Shown piece by piece: positions 9,416-54,826 of a stretch of DNA of 64,000 bases. The DNA is taken from positions 310,001 to 374,000 of the forward strand of contig NZ_JAMQOP010000004.1 of NCBI RefSeq assembly GCF_031624495.1, read 5' to 3'. The position numbers were made by a program, and so were the translations under genes. This stretch comes from Halogeometricum sp. S1BR25-6 (GTDB lineage: Archaea > Halobacteriota > Halobacteria > Halobacteriales > Haloferacaceae). Numbering within the stretch: position 1 is the stretch's first letter; the number at the start of each line of letters is the position of its first letter. The notes under the pieces are model-generated. The model saw nothing but the letters and a program-made list of their open reading frames with translations. It was not told the origin of the DNA and did no database searches.

Positions 9416-10847
9416 GTTCTGTATCGGGTTCCGTGGTTCGGTTCGCCGTCCGCGCTAGTTCTCGGGATGCGGCGCGGTTCGCGCGAGTCCGCGCGCCCGT
9501 CCGACCGGGACGCGCGTGCGTCGGGTTATCGTACGTCCACCCCGACGCCGGCCCCGGTCCGGCACGAAAGACTCCGCCTCGGCGTTCGTCTCGTGGCCCG
9601 GCGGACGGCGCCCGACCGCCAGTCGAGAGCCGCGCCACGCCATCGGTTAATATTCTCGTCTATCAGCGCAAAAAAATTTGGGCCGGTGCAAACAAAGTCC
9701 CAGGTTCTCGTGCAGTCGGGTGACGGATATCGGCCGGGCGCACCCGGTCACCGCCGTACATAGGAGACGGTGGGGCGGTCGGCCGTCCAGAGACTACCAC
9801 GGCGGATAAAACGTATCGACGAACTCAGGTCGTCGCGAACGCCGGCGTCCATCTCGACCCTCGCCGACGAATCGGGGAGTAGACAAGACTGGCCGTCGAA
9901 TACCCTTCTCAAATTCGATATAAGTAGTTGTATAATAGAACTCGCCGCGTCGCGAGTTTGACGCGACGACCGATGACTGAAGGAGACTTCCGGAGTTCGA
10001 TATGAAGTGAGAGTCAGAACGTCTGAGAACACGGTTACGCTCTCATTACACGGTGTTAGAGTCCCGAGCGACGTGCTGACACGTGGAGTATGTCTGACTC
10101 TTTTCGTAGTTCGGCGTACTGAACGTTTATACGCCGTTTTCACCCGAATTGGAGCCGTTGAGTGTACATTCACGGAACTGAGTTCGAGAGGTTCAAAGTC
10201 GGAGCCAACTCGATCTGAATAGAGATACCACGGGAAAGGAGAAGTAATACAATAGAAGGGCCCATTTACCGGTAATAGCTGTCTAGAGCAGAAGTATAAG
10301 ATAGAAAGGCAAGACATTTAGATATGTACGTGTAGATAAAAGTTGAGAACGGAATTAGTAACTCGTTCGGCTGGCTATACCCCCGTCGGCAGGGTTGTAC
10401 AATTACTTCTATATCCCCGAGCGGTCTGATGACAGATTACGCTAGCAATTCTGTAATAGAGAACAGCATCTCACTCGCGCGAACCCGCTGGGTGTGCCGA
10501 GCGAGCGAAGGGGGCCACAGGGAAGCCGAGACGAGACGGCCTGCGAGTCGAATAGGAGAGTTTCCATTACATCACTAAATTCGTAATGTCCATAGCCACG
10601 TATCGGCGGTTGGGACGACCGTTGCGATTTGTTTCGTATTTCAGAACGTCGAGGTGAGAACGTGTAGCGTCCAGATAGCGGTCACAAAGAGACTATCAAA
10701 ATGTCCCCCCAATAGATATCGTCCGAGAATCCCCCTATGTGGTGATTTCTCCCCGTGTCGAATTCTTCTATAGAGAACAGATTCGGAGATAATATGGACG
10801 CGACCGCGTCCGAATCGTTAAGGTATGGGGTCGTGACGCAAAAAGTG
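9416..10847. other. Long intergenic region without a supported gene
   Basis: About 1.4 kb between the divergent formate dehydrogenase operon and the GH3 gene. Bases 9420-9640 are GC-rich and could be the operon leader; 9880-10480 and 10560-10790 are AT-rich. Short open frames exist but have no recognisable domain or haloarchaeal codon bias. A small hairpin at 9948-9968 with TATA-like sequence before it, and a GC-rich patch at 10475-10550, are the only visible structures. No tRNA fold was found. Confidence 0.5.
9948..9968. repeat. Hairpin CGTCGCG-N7-CGCGACG behind AT-rich TATA-like sequence
   Basis: Perfect 7-base arms separated by 7 bases, directly downstream of the AT-rich stretch 9916-9940 that contains GATATAAG and TATAATAG. 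This could mark a short untranslated RNA or an operator; no coding frame is associated. Confidence 0.35.
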
Positions 10848-13178
10848 ATGCAAACAGGTTCGACTAGCGGAGACGGCGACGCGTCGACGGAGCGTCGGGT
10901 GGCAGAACTGCTCGATCGGATGACACTCGAAGAGAAAGCGGCGCAGTTGGGGTCGGTGAACGCCGAGGCTATCCTCAACGACGACGGAACTCTCGACCGG
11001 AACGCCGTCGAGAAGCATCTCTCGGAGGGTATCGGGCATCTCACGCGACTCGGCGGCGAGGGAAGCCTCCCACCCGCCGAGGCGGCCGAGCGGACGAACG
11101 AACTTCAGACGTACCTCCGCGAGGAGACGCGACTCGGAATTCCGGCGATACCCCACGAGGAGTGTTTGAGCGGGTACATGGGGCCGGAGGGAACGGCGTT
11201 CCCGCAGATGCTCGGGATGGCGAGCACGTGGTCGCCCGACCTCCTCAAAGAAGTCACGGGGACGATTCGGACCCAGTTGGAGGCCATCGGCACGAAGCAC
11301 GCGCTGTCGCCGGTGCTCGACATCGCGCGCGACCACCGGTGGGGCCGCGTCGAGGAGACGTTCGGCGAGGACCCGTACCTCGTCGCGGCGATGGCGTGCG
11401 GGTACGTGAACGGCCTGCAAGGGGACGGAGACGGTATCACGGCGACGTTGAAACACTTCGCCGGTCACGGGGCCGGCGAGGGCGGGAAGAATCGTAGTTC
11501 GGTCAACGTGGGTCGGCGCGAACTCCGCGAGACGCACCTGTTCCCCTTCGAGGCGGCGATTCGGACGGCGGGCGCGAAGTCCGTCATGAACGCCTACCAC
11601 GACATCGATGGCGTCCCCTGCGCCAGCGACGAGTGGTTGCTGACGGACGTACTCCGGGGCGAGTGGGGCTTCGACGGCACCGTCGTCTCCGACTACTACA
11701 GCGTCGAGTTCCTGCGGAGCGAACACGGCGTCGCCGCCGACGAACGCGAAGCGGGTGTGATGGCCGTCGAGGCCGGCATCGACGTGGAACTCCCGTATAC
11801 GGACTGCTACGGCGAGCACCTCGCGGAGGCGGTCGAGGAGGGGGAACTCTCCGAGGCGACGCTCGACGCGGCGGTCCGACGAGTCCTCCGCGCGAAGGTC
11901 GAGCACGGACTCCTCGACGACTCGACGGTCGACGCAGACGCCGCTGCCGACCCGTTCGGCACCGACGAGGCCGAGGAACTAACCACCCGCGCGGCCCGCG
12001 AATCGATGACGCTCCTGAAGAACGAGGACGACCTGCTCCCCATCGCCGGCGGGGAGACGGATTCGGTGGCCGTCGTCGGTCCGAAGGCGGACGACGCCCA
12101 GGAACTCATGGGCGACTACGCCTACCCCGCCCACTACCCCGAGGAGGAGGTCGAACTCGACGCGACGACCCCGCTCGATGCGCTCCGAGCGCGCGGCGAC
12201 GAACACGGGTTCGACGTGCTGCACGAACAGGGCTGTACGACGACCGGACCCGAGACGGACGGCTTCGACGCGGCCGCCGACGCGGCCGAATCGGCGGACG
12301 TGGCGCTCGCGTTCGTCGGCGCGCGGTCGGCGGTCGACTTCTCCGACTCCGACAAGGAGCGCGTCAACATGCCGAGCGTCGCCACCAGCGGCGAGGGCTG
12401 TGACGTGGTCGACCTCGGCATCCCCGGCGTCCAGCAGGGACTCGTCGAGCGACTCCACGAGACGGGCACGCCCCTCGTCGTCGTCGTCGCCAGCGGGAAG
12501 CCCCACGCCATCGAGTGGATAGCCGAGGAGGTGCCGGCCGTACTCCAAGCGTGGCTCCCCGGCGAACGCGGCGGCGAGGGAATCGCTTCCGTCCTGTTCG
12601 GCGAGCACAACCCCGGCGGCCGCCTCCCCGTCTCGATTCCGCGAACCGTCGGTCAGCTTCCGGTCCACTACAGCAGGAAGCCGAACACGGCGAACGAGGA
12701 GTACGTCTACACCGAGAGCGCCCCGCTCTACCCGTTCGGTCACGGGCTGAGCTACACGGAGTTCGAGTACGGCGACCTCTCGCTGTCGAGCGACGAACTC
12801 GCCCCCGCGGGTACCGTCACGGCCGAGGTCACCGTCGCGAACGCGGGCGACCGCTCCGGACGCGAGGTAGTCCAACTGTACGCTCGCGCGGAGAACCCGG
12901 ACCAAGCGCGTCCGGTGCAGGAACTGGTCGGATTCGAGCGCGTCTCGCTCGACTCCGGCGAGTCCGCGCGCGTCGCTTTCGAGGTGGACGCGACCCAACT
13001 GGCCTACCACGACCGCGACTTCGACCTCGCGGTCGAGGAGGGACCCTACGAGTTCCGCGTCGGTCGCTCCGCCGCCGACGTCGTCTCCGCGGCGTCGTTC
13101 GAGGTGACCGGAACGAAGGAGGTGCCGCAGAACGGCCGGGCGTACTTCGCCGGGACGACCGTCTCGGACGCCGAGTAG
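10848..13178 (+). CDS. Glycoside hydrolase family 3 (beta-xylosidase/beta-glucosidase)
   Basis: A GH3 enzyme of about 776 residues. The N-terminal TIM barrel starts at RVAELLDRMTLEEKAAQL, with the substrate loop LKHFAGHG and the nucleophile Asp282 in VVSDYY. An alpha/beta sandwich domain follows (ARESMTLLKNEDDLLPI), and the C-terminal fibronectin-like domain (PFGHGLSYTEFEYGD onward) ends the protein. The frame is open from a start at 10755, but the ATG at 10848 places the start about 15 residues before the family's first helix and is preferred; ATG 10794 is a second option. No signal peptide, so it acts in the cytoplasm on imported oligosaccharides. In this xylan island beta-xylosidase activity is the likeliest. 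Confidence 0.88.
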   Translation: MQTGSTSGDGDASTERRVAELLDRMTLEEKAAQLGSVNAEAILNDDGTLDRNAVEKHLSEGIGHLTRLGGEGSLPPAEAAERTNELQTYLREETRLGIPAIPHEECLSGYMGPEGTAFPQMLGMASTWSPDLLKEVTGTIRTQLEAIGTKHALSPVLDIARDHRWGRVEETFGEDPYLVAAMACGYVNGLQGDGDGITATLKHFAGHGAGEGGKNRSSVNVGRRELRETHLFPFEAAIRTAGAKSVMNAYHDIDGVPCASDEWLLTDVLRGEWGFDGTVVSDYYSVEFLRSEHGVAADEREAGVMAVEAGIDVELPYTDCYGEHLAEAVEEGELSEATLDAAVRRVLRAKVEHGLLDDSTVDADAAADPFGTDEAEELTTRAARESMTLLKNEDDLLPIAGGETDSVAVVGPKADDAQELMGDYAYPAHYPEEEVELDATTPLDALRARGDEHGFDVLHEQGCTTTGPETDGFDAAADAAESADVALAFVGARSAVDFSDSDKERVNMPSVATSGEGCDVVDLGIPGVQQGLVERLHETGTPLVVVVASGKPHAIEWIAEEVPAVLQAWLPGERGGEGIASVLFGEHNPGGRLPVSIPRTVGQLPVHYSRKPNTANEEYVYTESAPLYPFGHGLSYTEFEYGDLSLSSDELAPAGTVTAEVTVANAGDRSGREVVQLYARAENPDQARPVQELVGFERVSLDSGESARVAFEVDATQLAYHDRDFDLAVEEGPYEFRVGRSAADVVSAASFEVTGTKEVPQNGRAYFAGTTVSDAE

Positions 13179-17700: not shown

Positions 17701-18939
17701 CTACGCTTCGTCGAACAGCGTCTCGCCCTCGACCATGTGCTCGCCGACGGCGTCGAGGTCGAGCGTCAGGCCGAGACCCGGCTTCTCGGGAATCTCCATG
17801 CGGCCGTCCTCGATGAGGTTGTCTTCCTCGACGAGGTCCTCCCACCAGCCGAGTTCGTAGGAGTGGTACTCGACGGCCAGCGAGTTCGGGATGGCCGCGC
17901 CGACCTGCGCCGAGGCCATCGTCCCGATGGGCGAGGAGACGTTGTGCATCGCCACGGGGATGTAGTACATATCGGCGAGGTCGGCTATCTTCCGCGTCTC
18001 GCGCATGCCGCCGACGCGCGGGAGGTCGGGCGCGATGATGTCGACCGCCTGCGGTTGCAGCAGGGAGAGTTGGCCGAACTTCCGGTAGACGTTCTCCCCG
18101 ACGGCGATGGGCGTCGTCGTGGAGTCTGTCACCTTCTTCTGGACCTCGTGGTTTTCCGGCGGCACGGGGTCTTCGAGCCACCAGACGTCGTACGGTTCGA
18201 GTTCGCGGGCGAGGCGCTTTGCCGACCCACCGGTGAACGACCAGTGGCAGTCGAAGGCGACGTCCGCGCGGTCGCCGACGGCCTCGGTGACGGCCTCGAC
18301 GATTTCGACCTTGTGGTCGATTTCGGGGTTGCGCAGGTGGCGGTTCGCGCGGTCCTTCTCGTGACCCGAGGGCACGTCGAGGTCGAACTTGATGGCGTCG
18401 TAACCGAGGTCCTCGACGACGCGCACTCCCTCCTCGGCGCAGGCTTCGGGGTCCGCCTCGTTCTCGGTGTGGAGGTCGCAGTAGATGCGCACCTCGTCGC
18501 GGTACTTCCCGCCAACGAGTTGGTAGGCGGGCACGTCGAGGAGTTTCCCGGCGGCGTCGTGCAGAGCGATTTCGATGCCGGAGATAGCCGAGATGACCTT
18601 CCCGGAGACGGAACCCTCGCCGGACATCTTCTGAACGAGGTGCTCGTACAGACGGTCGATGTCGAGGGGGTTCTCGCCGACGAGGAACGGCTTCATCCGC
18701 TCGATGATGGCGTCGTCGCCGCCGCCCCAGTAGGACTCGCCGGTACCGACGACGCCGGCGTCGGTGTAGACGCGGACGAGAATCCACGGGTAGTTGCCGT
18801 CGACCATCGTCGTCTGTACGTCCGTAATCTCAGCGTCGCGGACGCCGCCGCGTTCGTTGGTGATGCCCATCGTCTCCGCGGAGAGGTCCCGCATCGTGTA
18901 CTCCGCGTTCGGGTCGCGTAGCTTCGCGTAGTCGACCAT
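17701..18939 (-). CDS. xacD: Xylonate dehydratase, enolase superfamily
   Basis: A 412-residue enolase-superfamily (mandelate racemase group) protein closely resembling the XacD xylonate dehydratase of Haloferax volcanii. Visible elements are the capping domain (residues about 30-150), the AIKFDLD strand, metal ligands in AFDCHWSF, WWLEDPVPPEN and VGENVYRKFG, and the general-base His in MHNVSSP. It dehydrates D-xylonate (possibly L-arabinonate and gluconate) to the 2-keto-3-deoxy acid, the second committed step of oxidative pentose degradation. Transcribed alone on the minus strand from ATG 18937-18939, with a TATA-like CTTTACTATC about 30 bases upstream. Confidence 0.87.
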   Translation of the reverse strand: MVDYAKLRDPNAEYTMRDLSAETMGITNERGGVRDAEITDVQTTMVDGNYPWILVRVYTDAGVVGTGESYWGGGDDAIIERMKPFLVGENPLDIDRLYEHLVQKMSGEGSVSGKVISAISGIEIALHDAAGKLLDVPAYQLVGGKYRDEVRIYCDLHTENEADPEACAEEGVRVVEDLGYDAIKFDLDVPSGHEKDRANRHLRNPEIDHKVEIVEAVTEAVGDRADVAFDCHWSFTGGSAKRLARELEPYDVWWLEDPVPPENHEVQKKVTDSTTTPIAVGENVYRKFGQLSLLQPQAVDIIAPDLPRVGGMRETRKIADLADMYYIPVAMHNVSSPIGTMASAQVGAAIPNSLAVEYHSYELGWWEDLVEEDNLIEDGRMEIPEKPGLGLTLDLDAVGEHMVEGETLFDEA

Positions 18940-23392: not shown

Positions 23393-25489
23393 TCAGTCGC
23401 TCTCTGTGTCCGTCTCCTCGTCGTCGTGGTCGTCGTCCTCCTTCTCGTCTCCTTTTTCCTTCTTCTCGTCGTGCCCCCGCTTCTCTCCGTTCTCGTCGTC
23501 GCCGCGCCCCTCGGACTCGTCCCCGTCCGACGACGATTCGAGTTCGACCGTCACCGCGCCGTGGTCCTCGTCCACCGTCGCGACCGTGGTTCCCGATAGC
23601 GCGCCCTTCTGGGCGGTCACTTCGTAGCTTCCCTTGAAGCCGTTCGCCGCGAAGACGCCCTCCTCGTCCGTCTCGCCGCGCTCTTCGGTCCACCACTCCT
23701 CGAAGACGAGTTGCCGGTACATCTCGCCGTGCGGGCGGATGCTCCAGTCGGCGTCGTAGTACGCGCCGGTCGGCCGCCAGTGGTCCTCCTCCCAGAATCC
23801 CCACGAGACGACGCCCTCGACGGCGGGTTGGCTGAACGCCACCGTCAGGAAGTCGCGCAGGTAGTCCGTCTGCACCTCGACGTCCTGGGCGTTCCGCCGG
23901 CTGAATATCTGGATGTCGAACTCGGTGACGAGGAGGGGGACGCCGAACTCCGAGAACGCCTCGAAACCGTCGATGAGGTTCCCCACGTCGAGCATCTGGT
24001 TGTACTGCTGTTGGTGGTGGCCCATGAAGCCGATGCCGTCGAGCGGGTAGTCGTTCTCGACGAGATGCTCGACGTAGTCGAGGTACTGGCTCCGCTGCCA
24101 CTGCCCGCCGACGGCGCCCATCTCGTTGGTGTACAGGGCGTGGTCCGTCGCCTCGTCCGCCGCGGCCCACCACTCCGCGACGGCGTCCCAGCCGAGTTCC
24201 TCCATGTCGCGGAAGTTGGACTGCCAGATAGGGTGGTTGTGCATGTCCCACTCGGTTACTTCCTCCTCGAACTCGTGGGCGTGGTTCCGAATCTTCTCGG
24301 AGACGATGGCTCGAATCTCCTCGGCCGAGAGGAACTCGCCGTTCTCCATCGCCATCCCGCCGCCGCCGTCGGCGGTGAACTGCTCCCAGAGGAGGTAGTG
24401 GCCGCGCACCGGGTAGTCGCGGTCGTTGAGCCATTCGAGCGTCGCCAGCGTCGTCTCGTTGTCGATGTCCCATCCCTCCTCGCTCTCCCAGGCGGGGTAC
24501 TTCAGGCCGTTCTCGACGGTGGCCTTGTTGAAGTCCTCCAAGAAGGTGCTCCGGTACCTCTCGTCGTCGGGGTCGTCGCCCGTGATGTGCGCCACCGAGA
24601 CGGCGCTCCCGAAGTCGAACGCGTGTTCGGTCATCTCGACGTCCACCGTCGCGTCGGTCATCGGTTCGCCGCCGGGAGCGAGGACGCGCACCTCGAAGTC
24701 CCGCTTGCGCGTCTCTTCGATGCGGTCGGCCGCCTCCTCGCGCCACGCCGCGTCGAGAGAGCGCCCCTCATAGTCGTACGGCGGAAGTGTGTCGAGCGTC
24801 ACCTCCGCGTCGCCGTAGTCGAACAGCGCGATACCGCCGACATCGACGGTCTGCTCGCCGTAGCAGGTCCAGAACTCCAGCGCCGGCGCGGCGTCCGCCG
24901 TCGGCGCCGCGCCCACTTGTATCGGGAAGAAGTAGCGCATCCACCGGTCCCACGGTTCGACGTGCGTCCCCCGCTGGACGAAGTTCGCGCTCGTCGCGTC
25001 GGCCCCGTCCTCGTCGGTGTAGTGGTAGGCGAAGTTCGCCGCCACCTCGGCGTCCGGCGCGTCGCTCCGGAGGTACGCGACGGCCAACAGCAGGTCGCCC
25101 TCCTCGAACGAGCGGTCCGATATCTCCCCGCGATAGGCGTAGTCCGACGGACTCCCGCCGTCGGCGGGGAGTTCGAGCCGCTCGCCCATTGTGATGGGGA
25201 TGGCGTCGGAGTCGACCGAAATCGTCGACTCGTCGCCGCCGACCAGCGAGAACGCCTCGATGGCCTCCTCCTCCGTCGTTCCGTAGACGTACTCCCCCGC
25301 CGGGAGCTGTTTCTGTTGTCTGCTCGACGCCGTCAGTTCCTCTCGGAGCGTCGCGTGGTACGCGCCGAGCGAGTCGTCCGACTGTGCGCCCGCCGCGGCC
25401 GTTCCGAACGCCGCCGAGACGCCCAGGACGCCCATCGACTTGAGGAACGGTCGCCGTCCGCTTCGGAAATTAGCATTATCGTCTGACAT
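23393..25489 (-). CDS. Tat-exported GH10 endo-xylanase-like protein with N-terminal beta-sandwich and charged tail
   Basis: A 698-residue protein with a Tat leader (GRRPFLKSMG). The N-terminal beta-sandwich (about residues 40-270) is of the type that precedes many GH10 domains, and the GH10 barrel runs from about residue 290 to 610. GH10 marks are FNKATVENGLKYPAWE, RGHYLLWEQF and the nucleophile Glu523 in LLVTEFDIQ. At the acid/base position (canonical WDVVNE) the sequence is WDMHNHP, with His419 replacing Glu. The last about 45 residues are a Lys/Asp/Glu-rich low-complexity tail. ATG at 25487-25489 is chosen over an upstream start because of the leader. The promoter carries a palindrome around its TATA box. 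Confidence 0.87.
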   Translation of the reverse strand: MSDDNANFRSGRRPFLKSMGVLGVSAAFGTAAAGAQSDDSLGAYHATLREELTASSRQQKQLPAGEYVYGTTEEEAIEAFSLVGGDESTISVDSDAIPITMGERLELPADGGSPSDYAYRGEISDRSFEEGDLLLAVAYLRSDAPDAEVAANFAYHYTDEDGADATSANFVQRGTHVEPWDRWMRYFFPIQVGAAPTADAAPALEFWTCYGEQTVDVGGIALFDYGDAEVTLDTLPPYDYEGRSLDAAWREEAADRIEETRKRDFEVRVLAPGGEPMTDATVDVEMTEHAFDFGSAVSVAHITGDDPDDERYRSTFLEDFNKATVENGLKYPAWESEEGWDIDNETTLATLEWLNDRDYPVRGHYLLWEQFTADGGGGMAMENGEFLSAEEIRAIVSEKIRNHAHEFEEEVTEWDMHNHPIWQSNFRDMEELGWDAVAEWWAAADEATDHALYTNEMGAVGGQWQRSQYLDYVEHLVENDYPLDGIGFMGHHQQQYNQMLDVGNLIDGFEAFSEFGVPLLVTEFDIQIFSRRNAQDVEVQTDYLRDFLTVAFSQPAVEGVVSWGFWEEDHWRPTGAYYDADWSIRPHGEMYRQLVFEEWWTEERGETDEEGVFAANGFKGSYEVTAQKGALSGTTVATVDEDHGAVTVELESSSDGDESEGRGDDENGEKRGHDEKKEKGDEKEDDDHDDEETDTESD

Positions 25490-25506: not shown

Positions 25507-25531
25507 ACACAATCATATTATATAATTGTGT
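25507..25531 (-). promoter_or_regulatory. Operator-like palindrome over the TATA box of the GH10 gene
   Basis: Perfect arms ACACAAT and ATTGTGT separated by 11 AT-rich bases containing TATATAATA. It ends 17 bases before the GH10 start codon, so the TATA box is inside the palindrome and the transcript would be nearly leaderless. A near copy with the same 11-base spacer lies at 27821-27845 before the oligosaccharide transporter. Confidence 0.65.
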
Positions 25532-25602
25532 GGAACTAACGACAGGTCGGAAATAACAGAGATGCTAAATTGTGAAGCGGCGCACCGCGCCGCTCCGCCG
25601 CG

Positions 25603-27669
25603 TCATTCCGACGGAACCCGACCCCGTTCGTCGGGGACGCCCGAGTGCTCGTAGAAGTACGCGGCGAGCGTGTCCCGCCAGCGCTCCGCCTGCGCCACCT
25701 GCTCGTCGAACCGCTCCGCGACGTGGCGATACCGCCTCTCGTCCACCCGGCCCTCCAGCGTACCCCACAGGTCGCGCAGTCGCTCGGTCTCTTCGACGCC
25801 GGCGAACAGGTTGTCGTAGAGTCGCTGAGCGACGGTCGTCCCGTCCGAGAGTTCGTGCTCCCACGGGAGGTGATGGAAGAACAGGAGGAGTTCCTCGGGG
25901 CAGGTCTCGACGGACTCGTAGCGCTCCGCGACCGGGTCCCGGTACTGCGGGGCGTAGCCGCTCCCCGCGCTCGTCCGGTCGACGCCGACGCCGTCCTCGG
26001 TGACGCCGTGGTAACCGGGCCACTCCCCCGGCGACGGGTCGTAGTGATTTTCGAGTAAGGCCTCGCCGTTGTACATCATGTGCATCAGGCCGAGACCCCC
26101 CGTCTCGTAGTCGATGCACGCCTCCCAGGAGTCTCTGAGAATCTCGGAAACGGTGTCGACGACGGCCTCGTCGGACCCGAACGTCTGCCGGACCCACTCC
26201 TCGGTTATCTTCTCGACGGAGCGGTCGGGGTTCCAGACGGCGCGCCCGAACGCGTAGAGGTTCGACTGCATCAAGTAGTGGCCGGTCCAGGTGTGGTCCT
26301 CGCCGACGCTGCCGACGCCGACGACGCCCTCGCCGTCGCCGCGGAACAGCGACTTCACCGGCGTCCCCGCGCCGTCGGCGTGCGTGTCGAACTCGAACAC
26401 TTCCTCCCACATAGGGAGGTGGTAGGTCGCGTGGACCCCCTGACCGGTGTACTCGCCGGTTATCTGAAACTCCAGTCCGAGGTCCGTCTCCGGCATCGCG
26501 CCGAACAGCGTCGACACCGGTTCTCGGGGCTGGAAGTCGATGGGGCCGTTCTTCACCTGCACGGTGACGTTGTCGGCGAACTCGCCGTCCAGCGGTTCGA
26601 ACGTGTCGTACGCCTGCACCGCGCGGTCTTCGTGGGAGCCGTAGACGAACGCGCGCCACCAGAGGCGGCCGTCGTGGGGTTCCAGCGCCGCCGCGATGGC
26701 GTTCGCGCCGTCGACGTGGTCGCGGTCGTAGTCGTACGGACCGGGTTGCCCCTCGGAGTCGGCCTTCACGAGGAAGCCCCCGAAGTCGGGTATCAGGTCG
26801 TACACCTCGTCGGCCTTCCGTCGCCACCACTCTCGAACCTCGTCGTCGAGGGGGTCGGCGGTGTCGAGGCCGCCGACGAGCATCGGCGACGCGAAGTTCA
26901 CCGAGAGGTACGTCCGGATGCCGTACCGCCGGAAGACCGAGACGAGTCCGGTCATCGCCTCCAGCCGTTGCGACTCCAACAACTGCCAGCCCTCGAAGGC
27001 GTCGAACGCCTCGCTAGCGCTCGGTCGCGGCGGCTTCTCGGTGTTGACGTTGTTGAGCACGACGCCGTTGATTCCCACCGAGGCGAGCAACCGGGCGTAG
27101 TCCTCGTATCGCTCCCGCAGGTCGGGCAGGCGCTCCCAGTCGAAGATGGACTCGCCGCCGTACCCGCGCTCGACCGACCGGTGGAACGGCGTGTCCCAGT
27201 GGTCGATGAGCCGATTGGCGTACGCCGGTTCCTCGCGGACGTCAAGGTCGTCGATGGGGTCGCCGACGCTCATCAGTCGGAGGAGGTGGAAGGTGCCGTA
27301 CACCAGCCCTCGGTCCGTCGGCGCGGTGACGACGACGCAGCGCTGGCCCTCCCACTCGACGGTTCTGAGGAGAAACCCCCCGTCGGTTAGACTCCCGACT
27401 TCGTCGACCGAGACCGAGTCGGCGACCATCCGCATGTCGTCGGGCGTACCGATAGCGAGGAATCCCCCGGCCGTCGACGGCGGGTGCTGCCAGAGGTGCG
27501 GGTCGTCACCGAGGAGGCTGGGAATCGCTCGCCGGAGTTCGTCGCGAACCGCGCTCAGTTCGGGGGATTTCTCGGCGACGTACGCGTGTCGACACAGTCG
27601 TCGGTACGAGTCGAGGCGGTCCGCGTCCGCGCGGTCGTACCGGAGCCAGCAGTCGTCGTAGTCGTTCAT
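25603..27669 (-). CDS. Alpha-glucuronidase, glycoside hydrolase family 67
   Basis: This 688-residue enzyme matches GH67 along its whole length. The catalytic acid is Glu306 in KADSEGQPGP; the base pair is Asp378 (GPIDFQPREP) and Glu406 (QITGEYTGQG), with the same 28-residue spacing as in characterised GH67 enzymes. It removes 4-O-methylglucuronic acid from the end of xylo-oligosaccharides. There is no signal peptide, so it acts on imported aldouronic acids, consistent with the divergent oligosaccharide transporter. The ATG at 27667-27669 is chosen; the open frame runs 63 codons further upstream, across the promoter. TATA-like GTTTTATCGG lies about 30 bases upstream. Confidence 0.95.
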   Translation of the reverse strand: MNDYDDCWLRYDRADADRLDSYRRLCRHAYVAEKSPELSAVRDELRRAIPSLLGDDPHLWQHPPSTAGGFLAIGTPDDMRMVADSVSVDEVGSLTDGGFLLRTVEWEGQRCVVVTAPTDRGLVYGTFHLLRLMSVGDPIDDLDVREEPAYANRLIDHWDTPFHRSVERGYGGESIFDWERLPDLRERYEDYARLLASVGINGVVLNNVNTEKPPRPSASEAFDAFEGWQLLESQRLEAMTGLVSVFRRYGIRTYLSVNFASPMLVGGLDTADPLDDEVREWWRRKADEVYDLIPDFGGFLVKADSEGQPGPYDYDRDHVDGANAIAAALEPHDGRLWWRAFVYGSHEDRAVQAYDTFEPLDGEFADNVTVQVKNGPIDFQPREPVSTLFGAMPETDLGLEFQITGEYTGQGVHATYHLPMWEEVFEFDTHADGAGTPVKSLFRGDGEGVVGVGSVGEDHTWTGHYLMQSNLYAFGRAVWNPDRSVEKITEEWVRQTFGSDEAVVDTVSEILRDSWEACIDYETGGLGLMHMMYNGEALLENHYDPSPGEWPGYHGVTEDGVGVDRTSAGSGYAPQYRDPVAERYESVETCPEELLLFFHHLPWEHELSDGTTVAQRLYDNLFAGVEETERLRDLWGTLEGRVDERRYRHVAERFDEQVAQAERWRDTLAAYFYEHSGVPDERGRVPSE

Positions 27670-27820
27670 CGGGTGCGACCGTCGACTCGTCGGCGTCCGA
27701 TAAAACGATGGTGATGGTTCGAACCGTCGACGGGCGGACGGACAGGAAGTCGTCGAGAGGGCCCGAGAGCGGGGCTGAGGCCCGACCGATTTCTGTTCAA
27801 TGTACCACCTTAACGATGAT

Positions 27821-27845
27821 CCACAATACTTATAAACCATTATGG
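27821..27845 (+). promoter_or_regulatory. Operator-like palindrome over the TATA box of the oligosaccharide transporter
   Basis: Arms CCACAAT and ATTATGG (6 of 7 paired) separated by 11 bases that contain CTTATAAAC. It ends 16 bases before the substrate-binding protein ATG. Spacer, position relative to TATA and distance to the start codon match the palindrome before the GH10 gene. Confidence 0.65.
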
Positions 27846-27861
27846 ACAAGAATGCCATGTT

Positions 27862-29676
27862 ATGTCATCCAGGAGCGGGCGTGGCGAGTACGACAGAACA
27901 ATCAGCCGGCGGCGGATGCTGGCGGCGGCGGGTGCGTCTGGTGTGGCCGCGCTCGCCGGCTGTTCGGGCGGCGACGGAGGCGAAGGAGAGGGTGAATCGG
28001 GAACCGGCGGGTCCGGCGGGTCCGGAGGGACCGACGCCGGGACGAACGGTTCTTCGGGCGGGTCGGTGGCGGACGCGACGTTCGTCAACGCCTACACCGG
28101 GAATCCGGTCGACCTACACTTCAACTCCTCGGCGACGCAGAACTTCAGTTGGCCGGCCGGCCGAGCGGTGTTCGCGCCGTACCTGAAGTACTCCTTCAAC
28201 GAGAAGTCGTTCCTGATGGGAGCGCTCTCGGACCTCCAGATACAGGACCAGGAAGTCACGCTGACCTTCCGGGACGACCTCATGTGGGACAACGGCGACG
28301 AGTGGACGACCGAGGACTTCGAGGTCCAGATTCAACTGGCCCAGAAGACGGGAAGCTCCCTCTGGGGATACGTCGACGACTACGAAATCGTCGACGACCA
28401 CACGGCCAAACTGCTGCTCTCGGGGCCGACGAACCCACAGATAATCAAGTTCGAGCTGACGAACTTCTTCGTCGACACGAAGAAGGAGACCCACGAGCAG
28501 TGGCTCGACCAAGAGGCGTCGGCGTTCCTGCAGTGGGCGTGGGAAGACCCCGTGGCGAGCGGGATGTTCTCGTTCGTGAACAAGGACCAGCAGGCGTTCG
28601 AGTTCGAGCGCAACCCGCAGTTCTACAAGTCCGACAACGTCAACTTCAGCTCCTATCTCATCGAGAGCTACGGGGGCAACACCGCCCAGCACCAAGCGCT
28701 CATCTCGGGGAGCGAAGTCGACGCGGCGACGAGTCTGTTCACGCCGCCGGAGATTGCGGACCGCTTCCCCGACCACGTCGTTGAGGTGAACATCCCGGCG
28801 AAGTGGGGGTACGGCATCGTCTTCAACCACAAAGACCCCGACTTTGGCACCCGAGCGGTCCGACAGGCCATCGCGCACGTCATCAATCGGAACGCCGTGG
28901 TGCAGAACGCGGGGCCGCGCACGAAGTTCGTGGCACCGACACCGTGCGGCATCGCGCCGCGCGACCAAGAACAGTGGCTCGGCGATTGGTTCGACGACTT
29001 CGAGACGTACGGCCCGGAGTCCTCGAACACCGAGCAGGCGACCAAACTGCTGGAAGAGGCCGGTTACTCCAAGCAGGGCGGTAAGTGGCAGAGCAAAGAG
29101 GGCGGCACCCTCGGCGGCGAGTACTACTCGCCCGCGGGGTGGACCGACTGGACGACGATGACCCAGACGGTCGTCAGTCAACTCAACGAGTTCGGCTTCG
29201 ACTTCTCCATCAGCACCAAGCCGACGAACGACTGGTTCGGTCAGTACTCCAACAGCAACTTCAAGATGGGGAGCCTCTACTGGCTGCCGGGCGGGTCGCG
29301 CTCGGCGTTCCCCTACTTCCCGCTGTACTACCAACTGTGGGCGACCGACATCGGCGGCGGTCACGGCTACCGCGAGAAGGCCGAATCCGAACAGACGATT
29401 CCCGCCCGCGGCGGCGGCGAGATGACGATCAACCCGCTCGAAGTGACGAAACAGATCGCCCGACAGCCCAGCAACGAGGAGGCGAGACAGTACGTCCAGC
29501 AGTCGGCGTGGCACAATCACATCGAACTGCCGTTCCTCGGACTGGTCTCCAAGTTCGAGCAGTCGTGGGTCACGAACGACGACTGGACGGTTGCCTCCGA
29601 GGGGAGCACCAACCGGCGCGTCAAGTGGCCGCCGTTCTGGTGGGTCCACGAGGGCGACCTGCAGTACAAGCAATAG
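27862..29676 (+). CDS. ABC transporter substrate-binding lipoprotein, family 5 (oligosaccharide/peptide type)
   Basis: A 604-residue Tat lipoprotein (SRRRMLAAAG, lipobox Cys34 in ALAGC) followed by a Gly/Ser/Asp-rich linker. A family-5 solute-binding domain (SBP_bac_5) of the Dpp/Opp type follows. In thermophiles and haloarchaea several such proteins bind xylo-, cello- or manno-oligosaccharides rather than peptides. The position, divergent from GH67 and followed by its permeases and fused ATPase, points to aldouronic acids or xylo-oligosaccharides. First gene of a four-gene plus-strand operon; the ATG at 27862 lies 16 bases after the TATA/operator palindrome. Confidence 0.88.
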   Translation: MSSRSGRGEYDRTISRRRMLAAAGASGVAALAGCSGGDGGEGEGESGTGGSGGSGGTDAGTNGSSGGSVADATFVNAYTGNPVDLHFNSSATQNFSWPAGRAVFAPYLKYSFNEKSFLMGALSDLQIQDQEVTLTFRDDLMWDNGDEWTTEDFEVQIQLAQKTGSSLWGYVDDYEIVDDHTAKLLLSGPTNPQIIKFELTNFFVDTKKETHEQWLDQEASAFLQWAWEDPVASGMFSFVNKDQQAFEFERNPQFYKSDNVNFSSYLIESYGGNTAQHQALISGSEVDAATSLFTPPEIADRFPDHVVEVNIPAKWGYGIVFNHKDPDFGTRAVRQAIAHVINRNAVVQNAGPRTKFVAPTPCGIAPRDQEQWLGDWFDDFETYGPESSNTEQATKLLEEAGYSKQGGKWQSKEGGTLGGEYYSPAGWTDWTTMTQTVVSQLNEFGFDFSISTKPTNDWFGQYSNSNFKMGSLYWLPGGSRSAFPYFPLYYQLWATDIGGGHGYREKAESEQTIPARGGGEMTINPLEVTKQIARQPSNEEARQYVQQSAWHNHIELPFLGLVSKFEQSWVTNDDWTVASEGSTNRRVKWPPFWWVHEGDLQYKQ

Positions 29677-29706: not shown

Positions 29707-30705
29707 ATGAATTACTACCTCCGACGCACGCTCAGGATTCCGTTGACCGTTCTCGCCGTCGCGACGCTCACCTTCGGGCTCATCCGACTGCTCCCCGGCG
29801 GGCCGTTCACCCAGCTCAGAATCCAACTCATCCGGCAGGGAGTCCCCGTCGAACAGGTCAACGCACGCATCGAGGCCCTGCAGAACATCCGGCCGGACGC
29901 CCCGCTCTGGCAGCAGTATCTCGATTACCTCGTGGGCGTCGCTCAGTTGAACCTGGGGCAATCCATCTCGCTCAACCAACCCGTCATGGAGGTTCTCGCC
30001 CGCGCCATCCCGTGGACCATCTTCCTCGTTGTGACGTCCACGGTGTTGATGTTCGTCATCGGAGTTCTGATCGGCGCCGTGCAGGCGTACTGGGAAGGCT
30101 CCGCCTTCGACCAGATGGCCTCGGGGGGCTCCATCTTCCTGATGGCGGTTCCCTACTACATCTTCGCGGTCGTCTTCCTGTTCTTCCTCGCCTTCCAGTT
30201 CAACCTGTTCCCGACGGGGAACGCGGTCGACAGGGGGGTCGAAGCGTCCCTCAGCGTCGAGTACTTCGCGAGCGTGCTGCATCACGCCGCCCTGCCGATC
30301 CTCTCGTTCACCATCGGGGGAATCGGCTCCACCGCGCTCAACATGCGCGGGAACGGAATTCAGGTGCTCGGCGAGGAGTACGTCGAAGTCGCACGCCTCC
30401 GCGGTCTCTCGGATAGCCGCATCGCCACCCGGTACGTCGCGAAGAACGCCATCCTTCCCATGTACACCGGACTGCTGTTGCTCATCGGCTTCCGCCTCGG
30501 CGGCACCGTCGTTCTCGAACAGATATTCTCCTACCCCGGACTCGGCTACTACCTCATCGCCGCGGTGAACGCGAACGACTACCCGCTGATGATGGGCTGT
30601 TTCCTCGTCATCACCGTTACGCTCGTCGTCGCGGTCTACGTCGCCGACCTGACGTACGGTCTCATCGATCCGCGCATCAGCGCAGGTGATTCCGATGGCT
30701 ACTGA
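29707..30705 (+). CDS. ABC transporter permease, DppB/OppB type
   Basis: A 332-residue membrane protein with about six transmembrane segments. The N-terminus has the DppB signature (YLRRTLRIPLTVLAVATLTF, LLPGGPF) and the EAA loop is EYVEVARLRGLSDSRI, which contacts the ATPase. It follows the binding protein by 30 bases and overlaps the next permease by 11 bases. Confidence 0.92.
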   Translation: MNYYLRRTLRIPLTVLAVATLTFGLIRLLPGGPFTQLRIQLIRQGVPVEQVNARIEALQNIRPDAPLWQQYLDYLVGVAQLNLGQSISLNQPVMEVLARAIPWTIFLVVTSTVLMFVIGVLIGAVQAYWEGSAFDQMASGGSIFLMAVPYYIFAVVFLFFLAFQFNLFPTGNAVDRGVEASLSVEYFASVLHHAALPILSFTIGGIGSTALNMRGNGIQVLGEEYVEVARLRGLSDSRIATRYVAKNAILPMYTGLLLLIGFRLGGTVVLEQIFSYPGLGYYLIAAVNANDYPLMMGCFLVITVTLVVAVYVADLTYGLIDPRISAGDSDGY

Positions 30706-31720
30706 GGCGGACTCCACGTCCTCCTCGGACGATATCGACTGGCGCTCGGAGTCGTCGTCGGTCGAGATGAGCCGCCGCGACCGACTCGAGGAGTTCTACC
30801 GCCACTCGATATACGAACCCGCCGTCGTCGCGTGGTCGGACCGCCGCACCCGCGTCGGTATGGTCATCCTCAGCGTCTACCTGCTCATGGCGCTCGTCGA
30901 GGTTCTCGGCCTGTGGCGCAACCCCTCGCCCAGTCAGGCTGAGCGGCTTCTCCCGCCGTTCCAGAACTGGGCGTACCCGCTCGGAACGACCCAGTCAGGA
31001 GTCGACCTGCTGGCGCTCATCATCGATTCGACGCCGTTCATCCTGCTGATGGTGCTCGCAGGCGGCGTTTGGGCCACCGGCATCGCCGTCCTCGTCGGCA
31101 CCGTCTCCGGATACAAAGGCGGCGCCGTCGACACCGTCATCACGTCCGTCTCGGACTTCTTCATGGCGATTCCGGGGCTCCCGCTCGTCATCATCCTCGC
31201 CATCACGTTCAGTCCGGAGAACCCCATCTTCCTCGGGATGATACTCACCATCAACTACTGGGCGGGGCTGGGGCGGTCCATCCGTTCGCAGGTGCTGTCG
31301 ATTCGCGAGGCGAGCTACGTCGAGGCCGCACGCACGATGGGCACGGGGACGTCCAGAATCATTCTCAAGGACGTCATGCCCAACATCATGCCGTACGTGA
31401 TGGTCAACTTCGTGCTCGCCGCGCGGTACACCATCTTCGCCTCGGTCGGCCTGTACTTCATCGGCGTGCTGCCGTACACGGGTCAAAACTGGGGCGTCAC
31501 GCTGAACAACGCGTACAACCAGGGCGGCCTGTTCACCATGCAGGCGCTCCACTGGCTGCTCGTGCCCATCGTCGCCATCGTCGGACTTGCCTTCGGTCTC
31601 ATCCTCGTGAGTCAGGGGATGGACCGCATCTTCAACCCGCGGGTGCGCACCCGGTTGACCGGCGAGTCCGAGTCCGTCGACGAGGAGAGCGAGAACGAGA
31701 CCACTTCCACGTGGGCCTGA
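30695..31720 (+). CDS. ABC transporter permease, DppC/OppC type
   Basis: A 341-residue membrane protein with an acidic cytoplasmic N-terminus, about six transmembrane segments and the EAA loop EASYVEAARTMGTGTSRII. The ATG at 30695 is preferred; a GTG at 30686 in the same frame would add three residues. It overlaps the DppB-type gene and is followed after 6 bases by the fused ATPase. Together they form the membrane channel of the oligosaccharide transporter. Confidence 0.92.
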   Translation: MATEADSTSSSDDIDWRSESSSVEMSRRDRLEEFYRHSIYEPAVVAWSDRRTRVGMVILSVYLLMALVEVLGLWRNPSPSQAERLLPPFQNWAYPLGTTQSGVDLLALIIDSTPFILLMVLAGGVWATGIAVLVGTVSGYKGGAVDTVITSVSDFFMAIPGLPLVIILAITFSPENPIFLGMILTINYWAGLGRSIRSQVLSIREASYVEAARTMGTGTSRIILKDVMPNIMPYVMVNFVLAARYTIFASVGLYFIGVLPYTGQNWGVTLNNAYNQGGLFTMQALHWLLVPIVAIVGLAFGLILVSQGMDRIFNPRVRTRLTGESESVDEESENETTSTWA

Positions 31721-31726
31721 TATAAC

Positions 31727-34027
31727 ATGGCAATCAACACAGACACGAACACGTCATCGGCCGACGACGCGGCATCGCAAGGGGTCGTCAACGACCCCAT
31801 CTTAGAGGTACGGGACGCGCACGTCACCTACAGCGGCGGCGACACGTACGTCATGGAGGACGTGAACGTCGACATCGACCGCCACGAAGTGCTCGGCATC
31901 GTCGGCGAGTCGGGGTCGGGCAAGTCCATGTTCGCATCGGCGCTCATGGACGCCGTGCCGGACCCGGGCCTCCTCACGGGACAGATAACGTACAACCGCG
32001 AGGACGGGAGTTCGGTCGACGTGCTCGAACTCTCCGACGAGGAACTCCGCAAGTTCCGCTGGGAGGAGGTGTCGATGGTGTTCCAGGGGGCGATGAGTTC
32101 GTTCAACCCGACGATGAAGATCAGCGCCCACTTCAAGGAGACGCTGAAGGCGCACGATAAGAACGTCTCCGAGGGGCTGGACTTCGCGCGCGAACTCTTA
32201 GAGAACCTCTACCTCGAACCGAACCGGGTGCTCGACTCCTACCCGCACGAGCTATCGGGCGGCATGCAACAACGGGCACTCATCGCCCTGAGCATGGTGC
32301 TCGACCCGGAGGTGCTGGTGATGGACGAACCGACCGCGGCGCTGGACCTGCTGATGCAGCGGTCGATCCTGCAACTGCTCGACAACCTGCAGAGTCAGTA
32401 CGACCTCACCATCATCTTCATCACGCACGACCTGCCGCTCATCGCCTCCTTGGCCGACCGGATGGCCATCATCTACGCGTTCCAGTTCGCCGAGATCGGC
32501 CCGCGCGACGAGATCATCGGCGACTCCGCCCATCCGTACACGAGGGCGCTGCTGAACGCGACGCCGAACCTCGACGCGCCGTTGGAGGAGATGCAACCCA
32601 TCGAGGGCGAGGGGCCGGCGCCGGTGAACGTGCCGCAGGGCTGCCGGTACCACCCGCGGTGTCCGCTCGCCACCGACGAGTGCCGGGAGGTCGACCCGCC
32701 GCTGGCGGCCGTCGGCGACGGCGGCACCCACCGCACCGCCTGTCACCACTGGCAGGAGGCACAAGAGGAGATTCCGCTCAACTTCGGCGAGGACGCGGCG
32801 ACCATCAAGGAGGGACAGGTCCCCGGGTCCGGGTCCGAATCCGGGTCCGCGAGGTCGACGGGCGGCAAGGCGACCCGGCCGGACGAGACGTCCCTACTCT
32901 CATTGGACGACGTCGAGGTGCACTTCGAGAAAGAGCAGGGACTGCTCGACCGGTTCCGGAGCGACGCGAGCGTCGTCCGCGCCGTCGACGGTATCTCGCT
33001 GGACATCGAAGAGCAGGACCTCGTCTGCCTGCTCGGCGAGTCCGGATGCGGGAAGACCACGCTCGGGAAGACGATGATCGGCCTGCAGCGTCCGACCGGC
33101 GGGTCGATACGGTACCGGGGGCAGGACATCTGGGAGGCGAAGGACGACGGAGGGAACGCCGAGATATCTCATGAGGAGATTCGCCGCGCCCTGCAGATCA
33201 TCCATCAGGACCCCGGAAGCGCGCTCAACCCCAACCGACGCATCGCGAATATCCTCTCGGAACCGCTGCGACACACGCACCCGAACATCAGTCAGGCCGA
33301 GCGACGCGAGCGGATGCACTCGCTGTTGGAGCGCGTCGGGATGACGCCGGCGGGCGACTTCCTCGACCGCTACCCGCACCAACTGTCGGGCGGCGAGAAG
33401 CAGCGTGTGGTGCTCGCGCGGGCACTGTTGATGAATCCGAACGCCATCCTGGCCGACGAGGCCATCAGCGCCGTCGACGTCTCCCTGCGCATCGAGATAA
33501 TGGACCTGATGCTCGAACTGCAGGAGGAGTTCGACACGTCGTTCCTGTTCATCAGTCACGACCTCTCGAACGCGCGGTACTTCGCCGAGCACGGCGACGG
33601 GCGCATCGCGGTGATGTACCTCGGCGAAATCGTCGAGATAGGCACCGCGGAGCGTCTCATCCACGACCCGCGGCACCCCTACACGGAGGTGCTGCGGTGG
33701 GCGACGCCGAACCTCGACTTGGACGCGATGGAGGCCGAGGACCCGCCGATTCGGCAGATAGACGTTCCGGACCCGGTGAACCCGCCGTCCGGGTGTCGCT
33801 TCCACACGCGGTGCCCGGTCGCGCGCGAGGCGTGCCGCGAGGAGCACCCGACGTTGGCGGACGTCGACGACGGCGACGGGAAGGCGGCCTGCTTCCGCGA
33901 GGACCCGAACCACCGCTACTGGGACAGCGAACCGCTCGAAGGGGCCGCCGAGAGCAAAGAGGAGTTCTTCGCCAACGCGGCCGCCGAGACGGCCGACGCG
34001 AACTCCGAGACGGCGAACTCGGACTGA
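31727..34027 (+). CDS. Fused double ABC ATPase (DppD-DppF fusion)
   Basis: A 766-residue protein with two complete oligopeptide-type ATPase halves. The first (residues about 20-340) has Walker A GESGSGKS, signature LSGGMQQ and DEPTAALD. The second (about 385-740) has GESGCGKT, LSGGEKQ and DEAISAVD, where the usual Pro of the Walker B segment is Ala. Each half ends in the cysteine-rich oligo_HPN region (CRYHPRCPLATDEC, CRFHTRCPVAREAC). One polypeptide thus powers the DppB/DppC pair. Fusions of D and F are common in haloarchaea. Last gene of the operon. Confidence 0.93.
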   Translation: MAINTDTNTSSADDAASQGVVNDPILEVRDAHVTYSGGDTYVMEDVNVDIDRHEVLGIVGESGSGKSMFASALMDAVPDPGLLTGQITYNREDGSSVDVLELSDEELRKFRWEEVSMVFQGAMSSFNPTMKISAHFKETLKAHDKNVSEGLDFARELLENLYLEPNRVLDSYPHELSGGMQQRALIALSMVLDPEVLVMDEPTAALDLLMQRSILQLLDNLQSQYDLTIIFITHDLPLIASLADRMAIIYAFQFAEIGPRDEIIGDSAHPYTRALLNATPNLDAPLEEMQPIEGEGPAPVNVPQGCRYHPRCPLATDECREVDPPLAAVGDGGTHRTACHHWQEAQEEIPLNFGEDAATIKEGQVPGSGSESGSARSTGGKATRPDETSLLSLDDVEVHFEKEQGLLDRFRSDASVVRAVDGISLDIEEQDLVCLLGESGCGKTTLGKTMIGLQRPTGGSIRYRGQDIWEAKDDGGNAEISHEEIRRALQIIHQDPGSALNPNRRIANILSEPLRHTHPNISQAERRERMHSLLERVGMTPAGDFLDRYPHQLSGGEKQRVVLARALLMNPNAILADEAISAVDVSLRIEIMDLMLELQEEFDTSFLFISHDLSNARYFAEHGDGRIAVMYLGEIVEIGTAERLIHDPRHPYTEVLRWATPNLDLDAMEAEDPPIRQIDVPDPVNPPSGCRFHTRCPVAREACREEHPTLADVDDGDGKAACFREDPNHRYWDSEPLEGAAESKEEFFANAAAETADANSETANSD

Positions 34028-40492: not shown

Positions 40493-40605
40493 ACTCTCAC
40501 ACCGCCGAGCGACGCGTCCGCCCGGCCGGTCCCCGACCGTGCGCTCCGCATCTTTCGTTCTCTATTTCAGAATTATATTCACACGCTGCTCGGGGAGTCG
40601 ATACA

Positions 40606-40709: not shown

Positions 40710-41465
40710 TCAGTAGTTGATGTTGAGTTCCACCACGTTCGCCGCGCTGAGAACCCGTTCCGGGAGTTCGCCGTGGAGGTCGTCGTCGCTGACGCGACTC
40801 GCCGGCGCGGAGACGCTGATGGCCCCCAGCACCTCACCGGACGACGCCTTCACCGGAGCGGCGAGACACCGAAGCCCCGCCAGTCGCTCGCCGTCGTCGA
40901 TAGCGTACCCGCGTTCTCGGACGTCGTCGAGGGCCTCGAACAGTTCCTCACGGGTGCCGATGCTCTTCGACGTCTCCTGTTCGAGTCCGCGTCGGTCGAC
41001 GATTTCGTCGACGCGCGACTCGGGGAGGTGAGCGAGGATGGCCTTTCCGAGCGCCGTCGTGTGCAGGTACGCGCGCATGCCCGCGTACGTGTCCAAGTCG
41101 ACGGCGTCCTCCCCCTTCGAGCGCATCAGGTAGACGGCCATCCCCTGCTCTTCGACCACCAGGTTGGCCAGTTCGCCCGTCTCGTCCGCGAGCGCCTTTA
41201 TTTCGGGTTCGGCGACCTGGTAGAACTCCATCGACTTCCGCACGTAGCCGCCGACTTCGAGGAACTTCAGCCCGAGTTGATACTCGTCGCCCCGTTTCAG
41301 CACGTAGCCGTGCTCCCGCAGCGTCGTCAGGTGGTTGTGCACGCCGCTCTTCCCCATATCGAGATTGTTCGCCAGTTCAGTCACCCCGCAGCGACCCCGC
41401 TCTCGCAGCTCGTCGACGAGAGCGAGCGTCTTCTCGGTCGTCCGCACCGGGTGTTTGGCGTTCAT
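40710..41465 (-). CDS. IclR-family transcriptional regulator (XacR-like)
   Basis: A 251-residue IclR-type regulator. The N-terminal winged helix-turn-helix (about residues 8-70) includes [20 protein letters not shown]; the C-terminal ligand-binding domain includes [23 protein letters not shown] and the conserved Cys in GLRCLAAPV. In Haloferax volcanii an IclR-family protein (XacR) controls xylose and arabinose genes. This is the only DNA-binding regulator seen inside the island and is the natural candidate to control it. Divergent from the GH4 gene, 137 bases between starts, suggesting joint control. Confidence 0.92.
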
Positions 41466-41602
41466 AGCTAACCATCACCATCTTTACAGCATAAGCGTTC
41501 TGGTCTAGAGAACACTCGCGGGAAACGCGGTCGACGGAGACGGAGGGACCGAGGGTCCTCCGCTCCGGTACCACTTTGTGACCGCGGGTCCGTTTCAGCC
41601 GT

Positions 41603-53323: not shown

Positions 53324-54826
53324 CTATCGAACGGTGATACCGGCGACCGTCCCGGGTTCGAGGTCCGCGACGAGTCGGTCGTCCTCGACCGAGACGTCGA
53401 GTTCCCGGCGCGTGAACTCCTCGGCGTTGTCGGCGGTGACCGCCACGTCGAGGTCGTTGTCGGCGAACAGCACCTCCGCGTCCACGTCGGCCGCGTCCAC
53501 GTCGACCCCCTCGAGGGCGACTTCGACCGTGCGGGCGTCCCGGACGTCGAGGTTGGTGAGCGTGACGTACGTCCCGTCGTCGCCGAGCGACGCCGAGGCG
53601 CCGACCAGCGGAAGTTCCTCGTCGTCGACGTCGCGGGCGGGCGCGTCGACGGACGTAGTGACCGCGTCGTTCCCCTTGTGGGGGGCGTACAGGTCGAACA
53701 CGCGGTAGGTGGGTCGCGCCCACGCGTCGTCGCCGTCGGTCTCGACGAGACACTGGAGCACGTTCACCGTCTGGGCGATGTTCGACATCGTCATCACGTC
53801 GGCGTGGTGGTTGAAGATGTCGAGCACCGCGGCGGCCGACAGCGCGTCGAGGGCGGTTCCGGGCTGTTCGAGGCCGTTCTCCGAGACGGCCTCCGTGTGC
53901 CACGTGCCCCACTCGTCGATGATGATGCCGATGTCGTCGGTGGTCGCGACCGCGTCGACCGCCGCGGCGATGCGCTCGATGTGGTGGCTCATCTCGAGCG
54001 CCTCGACCAGCATCTGGTCGTAGTCCTCCTCGTCGGTCTCGGAGTCGACGATGCTCATCGTCCGGCCGTAGTAGTGGTGGAGGGTGAGATGGTCGAGCGG
54101 GAAGTGGACGCCCCACGCGCTGTTGCCGACCTCTTCCATGAACCGGTGGTTCCACTCGTGGTCCTCGAAGCCGCACGCGATGAGTTCGAGGTCGTCTTCG
54201 AGCATCAGGTTGTCCATACTCCCGACGTACGTCGCAAATCGGCGGTACTCGCGGGCGTACTGTTCGGGACTCATCCGTCCGCCGCAGCCCCAGTTCTCGT
54301 TTCCGAGACCCCAGAACTTCACCCCGTACCCGTCCTCGTGGCCGTTCTCCCGACGGCGGTCGGCGAGTTCGGTGTCGCCCTCGTAGTTGCAGTACTCGAC
54401 CCAATCGGCCGCCTCCTGCGGGTCCCCCGACCCGACGTTGGCCGCGAGGTAGGGTTCGGTACCGAGGCGTTCGCAGAGTCGCAGGAACTCGTCGGTCCCG
54501 AACTCGTTGGTCTCCTCCGGCACTTCGTCGACGTCCTGCGCCCAGAAGAGGTTGCGGCGGCGGGGTCGGTCCTCGACGGGGCCGACGCCGTCCTCCCAGT
54601 GGTAGTCGTCCGCGAAACAGCCACCGGGCCACCGAAGTACGGGCATCTCCAGCGATTCGAGAAGCGAGACGACGTCGTCGCGGTAACCGTCCTCGTCGTC
54701 GCTCTCGCTCCGCCAGACGCCGTCGTAGATACACCGACCGAGGTGTTCGGAGAAGTGACCGTGGACTTCAGGTTCGATCCGGTCGATAACCGCTTGGGTA
54801 TGGACTGTAACCTGCGCGTTCGTCAT
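53324..54826 (-). CDS. Alpha-L-arabinofuranosidase, glycoside hydrolase family 51
   Basis: A 500-residue GH51 enzyme. The barrel starts at IEPEVHGHFSEHLGRCIYDG, with MPVLRWPGGCFADDYHWEDG, acid/base Glu177 in GLGNENWG and nucleophile Glu305 in IIDEWGTW; the C-terminal beta-sandwich covers residues 400-500. It releases L-arabinose from arabinoxylan oligosaccharides in the cytoplasm. The ATG at 54824-54826 has a TATA-like CATTTATGAC about 25 bases upstream, supporting a leaderless start; two earlier in-frame starts are less likely. Convergent with the GH2 gene. Confidence 0.95.
   Translation of the reverse strand: MTNAQVTVHTQAVIDRIEPEVHGHFSEHLGRCIYDGVWRSESDDEDGYRDDVVSLLESLEMPVLRWPGGCFADDYHWEDGVGPVEDRPRRRNLFWAQDVDEVPEETNEFGTDEFLRLCERLGTEPYLAANVGSGDPQEAADWVEYCNYEGDTELADRRRENGHEDGYGVKFWGLGNENWGCGGRMSPEQYAREYRRFATYVGSMDNLMLEDDLELIACGFEDHEWNHRFMEEVGNSAWGVHFPLDHLTLHHYYGRTMSIVDSETDEEDYDQMLVEALEMSHHIERIAAAVDAVATTDDIGIIIDEWGTWHTEAVSENGLEQPGTALDALSAAAVLDIFNHHADVMTMSNIAQTVNVLQCLVETDGDDAWARPTYRVFDLYAPHKGNDAVTTSVDAPARDVDDEELPLVGASASLGDDGTYVTLTNLDVRDARTVEVALEGVDVDAADVDAEVLFADNDLDVAVTADNAEEFTRRELDVSVEDDRLVADLEPGTVAGITVR

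Follow-up and report, generated by a model that had tools for sequence, protein, structure and literature searches.

Palindromes over the BRE/TATA regions of a xylanase and a Dpp-type importer promoter in a haloarchaeal xylan island, and a distinct palindrome associated with its XacR-type regulator

The window analyzed here is a stretch of 64,000 nucleotides from Halogeometricum sp. S1BR25-6 (contig NZ_JAMQOP010000004.1, positions 310,001 to 374,000), carrying an island of xylan-related genes. The genes of the island and the two palindromes from which this analysis starts are the following:

10755-13178: GH3 gene (open reading frame; ATG likely at 10794)
23393-25489, minus strand: GH10 xylanase, secreted, with the Tat-type N-terminus RRPFLKS (PF00331, E 2e-31)
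25507-25531: perfect palindrome ACACAAT-N11-ATTGTGT (ACACAATCATATTATATAATTGTGT), over the BRE/TATA region of the GH10 promoter
25603-27669, minus strand: GH67 alpha-glucuronidase, between the two promoters (PF07488/07477/03648)
27821-27845: imperfect palindrome CCACAAT-N11-ATTATGG (CCACAATACTTATAAACCATTATGG), over the BRE/TATA region of the importer (solute-binding protein) promoter
27862-29676, plus strand: Dpp/Opp-type solute-binding protein (SBP_bac_5, PF00496), first gene of the importer operon
29707-30705 and 30686-31720, plus strand: importer permeases (from open reading frames and translations)
31727-34027, plus strand: fused importer ATPase (from open reading frames and translations)
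40710-41465, minus strand: IclR regulator, predicted to be of the XacR type (PF01614/PF09339; 83-85% to proteins annotated XacR)
53324-54904, minus strand: GH51 arabinofuranosidase

Apart from some losses and rearrangements, the island is syntenic, from GH3 past the importer and as far as iclR, in G419 (same genus), G405 (Halogranum rubrum), G202 (genus Halogranum) and G245 (Candidatus Halobonum, another genus), and the importer permeases and ATPase are syntenic in all four. Orthologues of the solute-binding protein were identified at 17 named haloarchaeal loci, and GH10 homologues are present in 42 of the 392 genomes of the order. The Pfam matches uphold the GH10 and Dpp-type assignments made in a preliminary description of this DNA.

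That description had also singled out the two palindromes, and their coordinates, spacers and promoter geometry proved exact. Both have a spacer of 11 bases, within which TATAA begins, read in gene direction, at position 3 in the GH10 palindrome and position 4 in the importer palindrome. The former ends 17 bases from the GH10 ATG (25489, minus strand) and the latter 16 bases from the importer ATG (27862, plus strand), so that both overlap a predicted BRE/TATA at leaderless distance from the start codon. The arms pair perfectly at the GH10 site and in six of seven positions at the importer site, where one pair is C.A. Since the left arm of the importer site lies over the BRE/TATA region, the left and right arms are not equally informative. 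The pattern is, as previously noted, absent upstream of the other island genes, including GH67, which has its own promoter and no palindrome there in the upstream alignment.

Both palindromes are real and not products of chance. Allowing at most one mismatch, CACAAT-N11-ATTGTG occurs twice in the window against 0.02 occurrences expected from window shuffles, and sites with zero or one mismatch in the whole 4.5 Mb genome comprise the GH10 and importer palindromes only. At two mismatches the same genome contains 26 matches to the pattern and 26 to a reversed-pattern control. The pattern recurs at orthologous promoters: two of the three sites with at most one mismatch in G419, the closest relative with the island, lie at the GH10 and importer promoters, and the sole site in Halobonum lies at its importer promoter. 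Exact CACAAT-N11-ATTRTG matches in the 392 genomes, barring the window genome and Halobonum, are few and scattered, and we discarded the idea of a genome-wide regulon.

Conservation differs between the two promoters. At GH10, the G419 palindrome is kept as CACAAT-N11-GTTGTG, and CACAATTATATAA-YAYG-RTTGTG is retained between the window genome and G419, the single close comparison. Identical alignment columns amount to 21 of 27 in the palindrome and 50 of 76 upstream; because the G419 flanks have not fully diverged, this is only suggestive of local constraint. The palindrome is not a general feature of GH10 genes: homologues outside the genus lack it, and those from other families retain an A+T box with no right arm. 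Four GH10 homologues (L021, L022, L024, L025), all without the CACAAT palindrome in their promoters, share a conserved GGAGTG-N4-CACTCC inverted repeat directly before the ATG.

Over BRE and TATA, the promoters of importer orthologues share an ungapped block whose consensus is close to ATCCACAATGTTTATKACYAAYTATGG. The Halogranum site is degenerate (CACAAT-N11-ACTATA). In an analysis of 11 rows from 11 other taxa, with the window's genus left out, mean information in this block was 1.47 bits per base for the left arm, 1.25 for the spacer with TATA and 0.84 for the right arm, whereas the flanks had approximately 0.3. The palindrome axis gave a complementarity of 0.57, compared to 0.26 (sd 0.10) elsewhere, ranking second of 45 axes (z of about 3). 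The alignment suggests a right arm at the importer site that is weaker but conserved and shares the dyad axis. As the predicted BRE falls on the left arm, some of the importer conservation reflects core-promoter constraint. A position weight matrix built from importer promoters (with one training row shifted by one base) scores the GH10 palindrome poorly, because its TATA sits two bases differently.

The left arm and TATA also occur beyond the full palindrome. The G202 genome has just two copies of CAYAATNYTTATNA, both on the same contig, one at the importer and the other at a GH11 xylanase, and Halocatena pleomorpha likewise has both. This pairing speaks for a possible coupling of secreted xylanase to importer, although the GH11 genes have not retained the right arm. 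The related CCAYAATRTTTATNA was found at 32 sites in the 392 genomes, about eight of them at importer or GH11 genes. Nine lie in promoters of an unrelated conserved family of approximately 220-aa proteins, and others at other genes; we accordingly rejected this string as a xylan-only signature, since genes other than those for xylan also carry the left arm with TATA.

The occurrence of left arm and TATA at unrelated promoters sustains an explanation without a dedicated operator, to which we assign a modest probability. CACAAT-TTAT would be a strong BRE/TATA variant serving highly expressed secreted or surface proteins, to which the importer adds a conserved element downstream of TATA, the near-symmetry being partly coincidental. 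The nine sites at the unrelated family, the far stronger conservation of the left arm and the GH10 homologues of other families that have an A+T box without the right arm are what such a core-promoter element would produce. It accounts less readily for a full two-armed pattern that, in the window's genome, is unique to the GH10 and importer promoters, for the restriction of CAYAATRTTTAT to importer orthologues in 0.78 Mb of haloarchaeal loci, and for a right arm conserved above its flanks with the dyad axis preserved. The 220-aa family itself (L235, L241-L244, L246-L249) has CCACAATRTTTATTA, comprising the same left arm and TATA, conserved upstream, and its members share the sequence motif FAQTLxxLKxDGSNILLVG.

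The preliminary description had proposed the IclR protein encoded at 40710-41465 as a possible reader of the palindromes. Several lines of sequence evidence place this regulator in the XacR type: it has IclR domains, its orthologues in Halobacterium hubeiense and Haloprofundus halobius, encoded among xylose dehydrogenase and pentose genes, bear the name XacR, and its own setting is one of pentose genes; an NCBIfam search matched no XacR model. Its gene is associated with a palindrome of its own, GTTCT-N7-AGAAC, located in the window as follows:

10448-10464 and 10762-10778: two one-mismatch sites, upstream of GH3
40557-40573: further GTTCT-N7-AGAAC palindrome
41497-41513: predicted autoregulatory site, abutting the BRE/TATA of the iclR gene
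54971-54987, 55063-55079 and 55253-55269: three exact sites, upstream of GH51

This palindrome is present in the gene's own promoter in 15 of 15 distinct IclR orthologues (73-100% identity) and in none of 10 paralogues; in the orthologues it ends directly ahead of the TATA box, roughly 47-51 bases from the ATG. Four of the genome's seven exact copies fall within the window, which has eight sites at up to one mismatch (1.4 expected): one at iclR, three upstream of GH51, two upstream of GH3 and two between uxaC and iclR. The GH3 genes of G419, Halogranum and Halobacterium hubeiense likewise have exact copies upstream. The 400 bp upstream of GH10 and of the importer contain no GTTCT-N7-AGAAC site with up to two mismatches, and the iclR promoter contains no CACAAT palindrome. 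The presence of the former motif at iclR, GH3 and GH51 and its absence at GH10 and the importer imply that the two motifs mark different gene sets.

Direct binding of the IclR/XacR protein to the CACAAT palindromes in competition with TBP has in its favor that the island encodes no other recognized, conserved DNA-binding protein, that its gene is syntenic in G419, Halogranum, G202 and Halobonum, and that XacR is a dual regulator, with a negative semi-palindrome in the xacR promoter (PMC6085418). We nevertheless judge it improbable. Its orthologue group is tied to the other palindrome, which is missing near GH10 and the importer, and haloarchaeal sugar IclR proteins are described as activators (PMC11519228). 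Moreover, the CACAAT site does not co-occur with the XacR orthologue across genomes: in G414, of the same genus, the IclR protein is present (94%) while GH10, the importer and the palindrome at the orthologous promoter are absent, and in Halomarina (G206) the importer element is present and the best IclR match reaches 50%. A second IclR protein beside the cluster was also discarded as the binder, as the window-genome sequences compared yielded no orthologue of it. That second protein is represented by a pair, 87% identical, in Halomarina (L213) and Haladaptatus pallidirubidus (L202:29105-29869); it is tied to the same xylan cluster, and in Haladaptatus its gene is divergent to GH67.

The island's IclR protein would probably constitute a second, separate layer of regulation, with the GTTCT-N7-AGAAC sites of iclR, GH3 and GH51 as its targets. 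As an XacR-like dual regulator, it may repress its own gene through the site abutting BRE/TATA and activate GH3 and GH51 through the distal sites. XacR itself reportedly plays a dual role.

For the CACAAT palindromes, rarity combined with conservation at orthologous promoters supports a shared TATA-overlapping element. This agrees with the part of the earlier proposal that called for a common operator coordinating xylanase secretion with import; the choice of IclR as the reader is not supported. With confidence that we regard as evenly balanced, we interpret the palindromes as a shared operator for a putative dimeric transcription factor, most likely a repressor. The half-site arms lie 17 bp apart center to center, a spacing that is unusual for a simple helix-turn-helix dimer and counts against an operator. 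Steric repression of TBP and TFB appears the likeliest mechanism at the shared element, by analogy with proteins that bind over BRE/TATA and block TFB/TBP, one of the two main modes of archaeal repression (PMC6085418). The putative repressor, lying across BRE and TATA, would prevent TFB and TBP from reaching the GH10 and importer operon promoters until released by an inducer, probably a xylan breakdown product. Its release at both promoters would switch on together the secretion of the enzyme and the uptake of its products, presumably xylo-oligosaccharides carried by the importer.

An activator that uses the same palindrome to help TBP and TFB load, rather than to block them, seems to us unlikely. 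The TATA box lies inside the palindrome, whereas archaeal activator sites are usually located upstream of BRE. An activator would be in keeping with the known haloarchaeal sugar regulators XacR, RhcR, GacR and MscR, which are activators (PMC11519228). XacR is required for xacE activation (PMC10448506).

A more specific and distinctly tentative reading envisages a haloarchaeal regulator, not yet described, that clamps TATA via half-sites set widely apart (CACAAT-N11-ATTRTG), so coupling a secreted xylanase to one and the same Dpp-type oligosaccharide importer, in parallel to a GTTCT-N7-AGAAC XacR regulon; as part of this same reading, the coupled xylanase would be GH10 in this genus and the non-homologous GH11 in Halogranum and Halocatena.

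Among known systems, the CACAAT palindrome resembles SPS2 of the sptA promoter of Natrinema J7-2, a semi-palindrome that covers the BRE region and is predicted to obstruct TFB/TBP (PMC6085418), but SPS2 has a different half-site and spacing (TTCTT-N10-AAGAA), and the CACAAT palindrome is known here from sequence alone. It is plausible that the CACAAT palindrome constitutes a new operator of an already known TATA/BRE-overlapping type. XacR of Haloferax volcanii, as cited in PMC10448506 and PMC6085418, matches the island's regulator in being an IclR protein encoded beside pentose genes and in having a palindrome in the promoter of its own gene. The two systems differ: the CACAAT palindrome does not lie at iclR, the iclR palindrome GTTCT-N7-AGAAC has another sequence, and the H. 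volcanii XacR site is described as covering the WW motif, whereas the window's iclR site abuts BRE/TATA. In the literature covered, from which subscription journals are for the most part absent, no regulator of haloarchaeal extracellular xylan breakdown turned up. The analysis yields two concrete cis elements, one common to the xylanase and importer promoters and the other assigned to an XacR-type regulator, and corrects the pairing of candidate protein with DNA site.

Elsewhere in the window, an ACCCG-N13-CGGGT-like inverted repeat (ACCCGCAAGCTTTACTATCGGGTTTCGGGATATACG) flanks the TATA box upstream of position 18939, at the gene for an MR/MLE enzyme (17701-18939, minus strand), and is near-identical in G419, G405 and G202.
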